DNA from: Bacillota bacterium | GTDB taxonomy: Bacteria; Bacillota; Dethiobacteria; Dethiobacterales; Dethiobacteraceae | Length of the DNA: 37,898 bases | Assembly (NCBI GenBank): GCA_012522335.1 | Contig: JAAYKP010000093.1 | Location: 1 to 37,898 of the forward strand | Direction of reading: 5' to 3' | In this document: positions 21,300 to 23,010 of the stretch, in pieces | How positions within the stretch are numbered: position 1 is the stretch's first letter | Layout of the letters: each line of letters starts with the position of its first letter | Program-made: the position numbers and the translations under genes | The notes under the pieces: generated by a model | Seen by the model: the letters and a program-made list of their open reading frames with translations, nothing else | Told to the model about the DNA's origin: nothing | Databases searched by the model: none

Positions 21300-21577
21300 A
21301 AAGGGTAAAAAAAATCCTTTACACCCTCTACAGGTAAGGGGCGAAAGGATTACTTACGCGGTACCACCCTTATTCTCTGGCTCTGCCAGACTCTGGTTCC
21401 TCACATTAACGGGGAGGAGCCGGCATCACTTACTTGCCGTATGGCTTTCAGCTTGCAGCTTAGAGGTGAGTTTCTCCTACGCCGTTTACCGGTTCACAGC
21501 CACCACCGGCTCTCTGCAAAACCAACGCAGAATACTCTTCCTCTTCATTGCTTTTATCACAGCTTCTAAAAAATTTG
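21300..21577 (-). promoter_or_regulatory. T-box leader of the ilv-leu operon, CUC (leucine) specifier
   Basis: The T-box core AGGGTGGTACCGCG lies at 21357-21370 on the minus strand. Stem I shows AGAGAGCCGGTGG near 21510, nearly identical to that of the serS leader. The specifier loop reads GGAGAAACTCACCTC; aligned with the serS leader, the specifier is CUC, read by tRNA-Leu(GAG). A terminator at 21306-21351 follows the core. The operon should therefore respond to leucine starvation, although most of its genes also make valine and isoleucine. Confidence 0.9.
21306..21351 (-). terminator. Intrinsic terminator of the ilv T-box
   Basis: AATCCTTT pairs with AAAGGATT at the base of a longer stem on the minus strand and is followed by a T8 run. 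It is the regulated attenuator of this T-box. Confidence 0.85.
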
Positions 21578-21651: not shown

Positions 21652-21882
21652 TTATGATAATAAATCCACTAACTTCTTCACATCGTACCCTGTCACTATT
21701 TCCTCACCGACAATCACTGTCGGAATAACGGTCTGACGCGATTTACTGATCATGCGGTGGCGTGCCTCAGGATTTTCCTCGACATTATATTCCACATAAT
21801 CAAGCTGTTTGACGGAAAGAAACTCTTTCACCCGCTGACAATAGCTTCAGCCATGTGCCGTATATAACTCAATCTGCTGCAA
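21652..21882 (-). CDS. Selenocysteine-containing glutaredoxin-like protein (in-frame UGA)
   Basis: A 76-residue thiol-redox protein of the glutaredoxin/NrdH fold. Translation runs MQQIELYTAHG, then UGA (21847-21849), then SYCQRVKEFLSVKQLDYVEY, and ends at the TAA at 21652. The UGA falls exactly where the first Cys of the CxxC active site belongs, so the site would be Sec12-Ser-Tyr-Cys15. The rest is intact, including the cis-Pro segment TVIPTVIVGEE (Pro54) and the GYD motif near the C-terminus. The start must be TTG 21882: an in-frame TAG directly precedes it, and AAGGAGG lies about nine bases upstream. A hairpin right after the UGA fits a bacterial SECIS. Likely role: reduction of disulfides or peroxides with high reactivity. 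The alternative is a point-mutated pseudogene, but no other lesion is seen. It stands alone between the ilv promoter and ribU. Confidence 0.82.
21802..21847 (-). promoter_or_regulatory. Candidate bacterial SECIS element
   Basis: On the minus strand GAAAG-AGTTT-CTTTC (21815-21829) makes an apical hairpin with a G in the loop at 21823, 24 bases after the UGA. A bulged U (21830) and a G-C pair extend it. An outer helix AAGCU/AGCUU (21843-21847 with 21802-21806) begins at the UGA itself. Loop G, bulged U and distance fit known SelB-binding hairpins. The structure was drawn by eye. Confidence 0.55.
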
Positions 21883-22051
21883 CTATGCTCGCCTCCTTTT
21901 ACTGCTATCTTTCAACAGCAGGAAGCACTTTATACTACATGACAATTATTAACACGACAGCGGTAAAAACTAAAAAATAGTAAGCAACGGCTGCCGACGG
22001 CATCGCTGTCAGCAAATAAAAAGCAGTGCGGGATTGAGCCGTCTGCCAACT

Positions 22052-22088
22052 AAAAAAAACCTTATTTGCCGGACAGCAAATAAGGTTT
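22052..22088 (-). terminator. Terminator downstream of ribU
   Basis: Minus strand AAACCTTATTTGC-TGTCCG-GCAAATAAGGTTT is a perfect 13-base-pair stem followed by TTTTTAG. It separates ribU from the glutaredoxin gene, so that gene needs its own promoter. From 21893 to 22051 only a weak TATAAA and no convincing -35 is seen. Confidence 0.88.
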
Positions 22089-22139
22089 ACAAAAAAATCA
22101 GATAGATGTTTAAAAAAATTACTTTATAAGATTTAAGCA

Positions 22140-22168
22140 GCGTGACAAGGAACCGTCCCCTGTCACGC
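22140..22168. repeat. REP-like palindrome after ribU
   Basis: GCGTGACA and TGTCACGC flank AGGAACCGTCCCC to give an imperfect palindrome two bases from the ribU stop. The GGGGACGGTTCC core with TGTCAC arms resembles a short repeat I know from many Firmicute genomes, where related units sit near REP-associated transposases. Only one copy is present here. Confidence 0.45.
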
Positions 22169-22170
22169 GG

Positions 22171-22731
22171 TTATGCTTCTTTTGCTTCAGCCATCTCCAG
22201 CCGCAGTACTCTGGCAACCGGTTTGTAGACAGCAAAGGTAATTATACTGTTGGCACCGGCTTTAATTAAATTAAAGGGAATAATTGTCGGCAGCAGCATG
22301 GCCATTACTACTTCACGGGGAGCACCCATAAATTTGACAGTAAAAATCAAATTAAGGGGAATCATGGTTAAAGTCATGGCAATTGAACCCACAATCAAAC
22401 TGGCCACTGCGCCGGCGCGGGAAGTAAATTTACGGTAAATGCTGCCGGCCACTAACACAAAAGCTCCTGTAGCCACAATATGCATCAGTGCGCCGATCCA
22501 GCCGCTGCCGGCCGAAACGGTGGCCGCCTGAAGCAGGGAAACAACAATTGTTAAGATCAGGCCGCTCCAGGGACCGAATAAAAAGGTACCAATCAGAATA
22601 GGTACATCGGCCATATCATACTCCAGAAAGGGAGCGGAGGGAAAAATAGGGAAACGTACCAAATACACCAATAATACCGATAACGCCGCCAACATCGCCA
22701 AGTTTACCATTTGCCTCACATTATTTTTCAT
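22171..22731 (-). CDS. ribU: Riboflavin ECF transporter S component
   Basis: Substrate-binding membrane subunit of an energy-coupling-factor transporter; it works with the EcfA, EcfA' and EcfT module encoded elsewhere. The 186-residue protein has about six hydrophobic helices. It shows the RibU-type segments FLEYDMADVPILIGTFLFGP and SGWIGALMHIVATGAF, and an N-terminal LAMLAALSVLL that carries the Ala motif for docking to EcfT. The ATG is preceded by AGGAGG. The FMN riboswitch upstream confirms a flavin substrate: uptake is shut off when FMN is plentiful. Confidence 0.94.
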   Translation of the reverse strand: MKNNVRQMVNLAMLAALSVLLVYLVRFPIFPSAPFLEYDMADVPILIGTFLFGPWSGLILTIVVSLLQAATVSAGSGWIGALMHIVATGAFVLVAGSIYRKFTSRAGAVASLIVGSIAMTLTMIPLNLIFTVKFMGAPREVVMAMLLPTIIPFNLIKAGANSIITFAVYKPVARVLRLEMAEAKEA

Positions 22732-22874: not shown

Positions 22875-23004
<130 letters not shown>

Positions 23005-23010
23005 AATTCT

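Follow-up and report, generated by a model that had tools for sequence, protein, structure and literature searches.

A glutaredoxin gene with an in-frame UGA at its first active-site position in a Dethiobacteraceae bacterium: a probable selenoprotein with a putative SECIS hairpin

A single UGA codon within a short glutaredoxin-like gene (grx) of a Dethiobacteraceae bacterium raises the question of whether the gene is broken, wrongly sequenced, or translated with selenocysteine (Sec) at its redox centre. We analyzed the 37,898-nucleotide stretch of DNA that carries the gene (hereafter, the window) together with the genome that holds it and related genomes. The features concerned are the following.

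21652..21882, minus strand: grx, predicted selenoprotein gene of 76 aa with TTG start and TAA stop (translation with TGA as U; PF00462; orthologues in six other species)
21847..21849, minus strand: UGA codon 12, predicted Sec, first position of the U-S-Y-C active site (same codon in six Sec orthologues; Sec machinery)
21892..21898, minus strand: Shine-Dalgarno sequence AAGGAGG with a 9-nt spacer to the TTG (sequence; relatives' starts are preceded by similar purine-rich sites)
21814..21830, minus strand: putative bSECIS hairpin within the coding sequence, GAAAG/CUUUC with a closing A-U and the loop GUU (codons 18-22 invariant in 7/7; compensated pairs)
22057..22088, minus strand: terminator-like hairpin with a T tail between ribU and grx (pattern scan, 14-pair stem)

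The sequence bore out an earlier sequence-only reading of the locus in its coordinates and frame, the TTG start, the TAG and AAGGAGG before it, and the UGA at 21849-21847. The gene ends with TAA at 21654-21652 on the minus strand, and inspection of the frame found one internal stop, the TGA at codon 12. The TTG start is sound because an in-frame TAG lies directly 5' of it, the AAGGAGG site precedes it, and the homologous start codon is ATG in four relatives; between the TAG and the UGA, TTG is the only usable start codon. The same reading had expected automatic annotation to miss the gene or call it broken. One refinement applies here: a standard gene caller could still report a 59-residue open reading frame (ORF) from the GTG at codon 18, and the gene might then be annotated in truncated form instead of being missed altogether.

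The translated protein carries the active site LYTAHG-U-SYC, the cis-proline loop TVIPT and a GYD motif. Residues 4-63 matched PF00462 in Pfam with 56 bits (E 4.6e-15), where the cut-off is 22.9. We utilized AlphaFold2 to model the protein from the single sequence with Cys at residue 12 (mean pLDDT 73). The model showed the order b-a-b-a-b-b-a of glutaredoxins, and residue 12 stands immediately ahead of helix 1. Foldseek retrieved glutaredoxins at TM 0.7-0.8; the matches included BC3987, dithiol cGrx1, glutaredoxin 3 and NrdH structures. Pro54 and Thr55 were invariant in alignment A1. The predicted fold thus matches the dithiol glutaredoxin class.

Insertion of Sec needs its own machinery, and the window's genome, a draft of 2.0 Mb in 169 contigs listed as 99% complete, contains all four components that the earlier reading had named as a check. 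Profile searches placed selA (585 bits), selB (381 bits) and selD (369 bits) over their curated cut-offs, the three genes lying adjacent in one cluster on a single contig (C128). A tRNA-Sec on contig C88 also scored over its curated cut-off (71.5 bits), and ARAGORN called it tRNA-SeC with anticodon tca (UCA). An in-frame TGA is found in selD as well, and a strong hairpin, GGCACAG-GUG-CUGUGCC, lies behind it. We dropped the co-occurrence of SelB as a test of the TGA: 24 of 27 relatives scored over the selB cut-off, those lacking the gene and the Cys-bearing genome G009 included, and the test has no power when nearly all relatives have SelB with or without the gene.

We then compared the gene across species. 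Six other species of the family have TGA at exactly the homologous codon, with 50-67% protein identity to the window's grx, and this TGA recurs in independent public assemblies of other species. In a class-wide search that gave 24 homologous places at E <= 1e-14, 19 of these had one TGA. The UGA at codon 12 aligned with Cys in three homologues (L032, L037 and L038) and in PDB homologues; with no other in-frame stop in the gene, the claim that its only stop sits at the redox cysteine position was upheld. After the UGA, the window's grx differed from its Sec orthologues by pn 0.21-0.33 against ps 0.70-1.00. Synonymous sites near saturation beside a conserved protein show purifying selection 3' of the TGA and argue strongly against decay or a sequencing error. 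Gene order around grx, gyrB-gyrA-FAD oxidoreductase-(ribU)-grx-(ilv/leu operon)-fusA, was kept at four orthologous loci (L023, L024, L025 and L028), while the contigs of L026 and L027 are too short to display more than a part of the neighbourhood. The same gyrB-gyrA...grx...fusA neighbourhood surrounds a Cys orthologue (L081). A tree of Sec and Cys forms required at least three changes by parsimony; it was poorly supported and suggested a direction for L032/L033 only.

The terminator-like hairpin between ribU and grx is no more than suggestive of a separate grx transcription unit, as the pattern scan found one such element against 1.0 expected in shuffles. Several other elements lie in the window. 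Two T-box leaders occur on the minus strand (21334-21557 and 1209-1414), and one of them precedes ilvE-led ilv/leu genes and has a perfect TTGACA-17-TATAAT promoter match at 21612-21584. An FMN riboswitch (22875-23006, minus strand) lies upstream of a RibU-like ECF transporter gene (22171-22731). The palindromic element GTGACAGGGGACGGTTCCTTGTCACGC is found at about 22138-22167, its core once in the window; we take it to resemble the REP-like repeats tied to IS200-type transposases.

A bacterial selenoprotein gene would also be expected to hold a SECIS element, and a candidate was found just after the UGA. The segment GUGAAAGAGUUUCUUUC (21831-21815), which begins at the 16th base after the UGA and occurs exactly once in the window, was invariant in 7/7 Sec orthologues, whereas the flanking codons varied. 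Codons 18-22, GTG-AAA-GAG-TTT-CTT, were identical in 7/7 Sec orthologues, rare synonymous codons included; Leu22 was CTT in all seven, a codon that makes up 7.6% of Leu codons in the window's genes. Most pairs of Sec orthologues are near synonymous saturation. Under independence, the chance that five other lineages match the window at all five codons is ~2e-12, and that five lineages share any one codon set is 4.6e-8, figures that kinship makes optimistic. Across 15 Sec homologues, 91% of cells paired, and in distant members both sides of the stem had changed together from A-U to G-C at columns 23/33 (L069) and from U-A to C-G at columns 20/36 (L071); as many double changes were reached in 4 of 500 shuffles.

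The published bSECIS model asks for a loop G/U, a stem, a set spacing and a minimum free energy of <= -7.5 kcal/mol. The grx hairpin has the loop, stem and spacing of the model: its apical loop of 5 nt, AGUUU, has G second and U third and is separated from the UGA by 22 nt. In this species, however, the stem is weak and rich in A-U, and the isolated stem-loop, at -3.9 kcal/mol, misses the energy of the model. The minimum-energy fold of 51 nt reached -8.6 kcal/mol in a different pairing register, and the hairpin region of the window showed no thermodynamic excess over shuffles (z = -0.17). We therefore rejected simple thermodynamic support, which is absent in this species (z -0.17), and the case for a SECIS element rests on conservation and compensation. 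The thermodynamic weakness of the hairpin is the main soft spot of the analysis.

These comparisons bear directly on the other ways in which the UGA could be explained. Decaying genes are usually recognized by a stop within a conserved domain, and a nonsense mutation at the active-site Cys might have inactivated grx; given the identical TGA in six other species with 50-67% identity to this protein, the conserved protein downstream, the syntenic locus and the lack of any further lesion, we regard a pseudogene as extremely improbable. An error of sequencing or assembly, with TGC or TGT as the real codon, deserves a thought in a draft of 169 contigs, where TGA is one base from either codon. It would have to be repeated in independent assemblies of other species, and the Sec machinery and the SECIS-like constraint predict TGA, leaving such an error with hardly any probability. 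A conserved protein despite nearly saturated synonymous sites, a recurrent TGA and shared synteny are together not what decay or error would be expected to leave.

The frame is open across the UGA, which would also suit a reading of the codon as a standard amino acid (Trp, Cys or another) without selenium, through a code change or programmed readthrough. However, TGA ends 5 of 23 genes in the window and so acts as a stop in this genome, a tRNA-Sec (UCA) and SelB are present, and the UGA is always aligned with the redox Cys; we give this reading next to no credence. The UGA could instead serve mainly as a selenium-dependent termination switch, with either a short peptide or, starting from the GTG at codon 18, the 59-aa ORF as its product. 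That GTG follows soon after the UGA, and termination is expected to compete with Sec insertion under low selenium. Yet the GTG has no clear Shine-Dalgarno site upstream, a protein begun there would be without strand 1 and the two active-site residues, and Leu6, Tyr7 and their surroundings 5' of the UGA are conserved, all of which makes a switch as the main role exceedingly unlikely.

With the same stop in six relatives and a complete Sec machinery, the gene almost certainly encodes a Sec glutaredoxin. We hold it to be a genuine Sec-containing oxidoreductase of glutaredoxin fold and short YruB/NrdH-like type, with Sec insertion at residue 12 directed by SelB and the hairpin, and we do so with very high confidence. 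The proposal of a probable selenoprotein made from the sequence alone is thus strengthened by the machinery, the recurrent TGA and the purifying selection, and a SECIS-like hairpin has been added to it. The analysis shows the structure of the gene, its conserved UGA, the machinery, the selection on the protein, the conservation of the RNA, the synteny and the fold class; that Sec is actually inserted, and what the protein catalyzes, on which substrate and with which electron donor, is inferred. SelB with Sec-tRNA(Sec) would bind the intragenic hairpin, whose first base is roughly the 17th past the UGA, and Sec would be inserted at residue 12 during translation. From knowledge of the family, the Sec12 selenolate would attack a target disulfide and the Cys15 thiol of U-S-Y-C would resolve the intermediate, which would make the protein a fast disulfide reductant in an anaerobe.

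For its electrons the protein may well depend on a flavin enzyme of the thioredoxin-reductase type, or on some other small thiol, and not on glutathione of the cell's own making. A profile search of the genome with PF04262 found no glutamate-cysteine ligase of that type, and none of its proteins passed the TIGR01292 cut-off for thioredoxin reductase, the best being a 294-aa frame with 191 bits. The one other PF00462 match in the genome (contig C118) was rejected as a second true glutaredoxin because it is a Spx/ArsC-like protein; the Sec protein therefore appears to be the sole ordinary glutaredoxin of the genome. A Sec MsrA is reported for Alkaliphilus oremlandii in the titles of cited works. 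We rejected such a partner here, as the sole MsrA match (contig C3, 5986-6432) lies within a 360-aa open frame without an in-frame stop.

The relatives also include Cys forms. In G009, the syntenic grx locus has TGT for TGA while the genome retains a full SelB, and it has GTC for GTG and CTC for CTT, two synonymous changes that disrupt two pairs of the stem. Of the two class-level Cys homologues, L037 has lost the loop G through GAG to GAA and L038 has kept the whole hairpin. This pattern fits a hairpin that came under relaxed constraint once Sec had been lost, although three sequences are few. We lean towards a history in which Sec was replaced by Cys at the G009 locus and the stem was eroded by synonymous changes only, within a lineage-specific expansion of Sec glutaredoxins that share a common SECIS. 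If this is true, nature has run at the G009 locus a before-and-after test of what holds a bacterial SECIS in place.

Three relatives carry a further set of glutaredoxin-like genes that have an in-frame TGA: L077 (G002:C30:65052-65273), L078 (G009:C2:37028-37249) and L079 (G011:C67:31998-32216). Their active site is GKY-U-GxC or similar, and the hairpin GUGAAAGAGUUYCUUUCAC follows the TGA as it does in grx; the one member scanned against NCBIfam matched under the cut-off. Elsewhere in the class, five Sec glutaredoxin-like genes (L072-L075 and L080) have T-U-PHC and a different but analogous hairpin, for example GCGAAGG-UGUA-CCUUCGC.

Sec glutaredoxins of this branch have probably been recorded too seldom, because standard annotation would truncate or drop the gene and the tested NCBI family models score it below their cut-offs. 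Since hosts that use Sec have related forms of the protein, with Sec or with Cys, at a single locus, the contribution of selenium to glutaredoxin becomes testable, and the same lineage allows a test of how a SECIS that has lost its use decays.

Finally, we placed the protein among known families. The best NCBIfam match was GlrX_YruB (TIGR02196), over 72 residues at E 1.2e-20; the two share a short length of 74-76 aa, but the window's protein, with 73.8 bits, fell short of the curated cut-off (88.55), whereas the Cys homologue L037 passed it with 100.4 bits. The UXX-star families (NF041212, NF041114, NF041211 and NF047338) are likewise short and glutaredoxin-like with Sec at the first active-site position. 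The protein fell under every curated cut-off of these models (55.2 bits against 66 for NF041212, E 6.2e-15), and it keeps the resolving Cys (UxxC); for UXX-star family 1 the listed motif is UxxT. The cGrx1 structure 7c10 was among the best matches both by sequence and by fold, and we take this dithiol protein to be the Cys form of the A. oremlandii selenoprotein. It is ~33% identical to the window's protein and has PHC after the Sec/Cys position, where SYC stands here. Among the papers covered by our search, we met no earlier report of a Sec glutaredoxin from this Dethiobacteria-like lineage. Glutaredoxin with UxxC is, however, a listed selenoprotein family (PMC1794560, PMC9312934, PMC13188914), in agreement with the initial remark that Sec glutaredoxins are known but rare, and the gene is thus a new member rather than a new class. 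The window's protein shares with the Sec glutaredoxin of Alkaliphilus (Clostridium) oremlandii the glutaredoxin fold, UxxC, an anaerobic Firmicute host and the SelA/B/D system, and is a well-supported addition to this established class.
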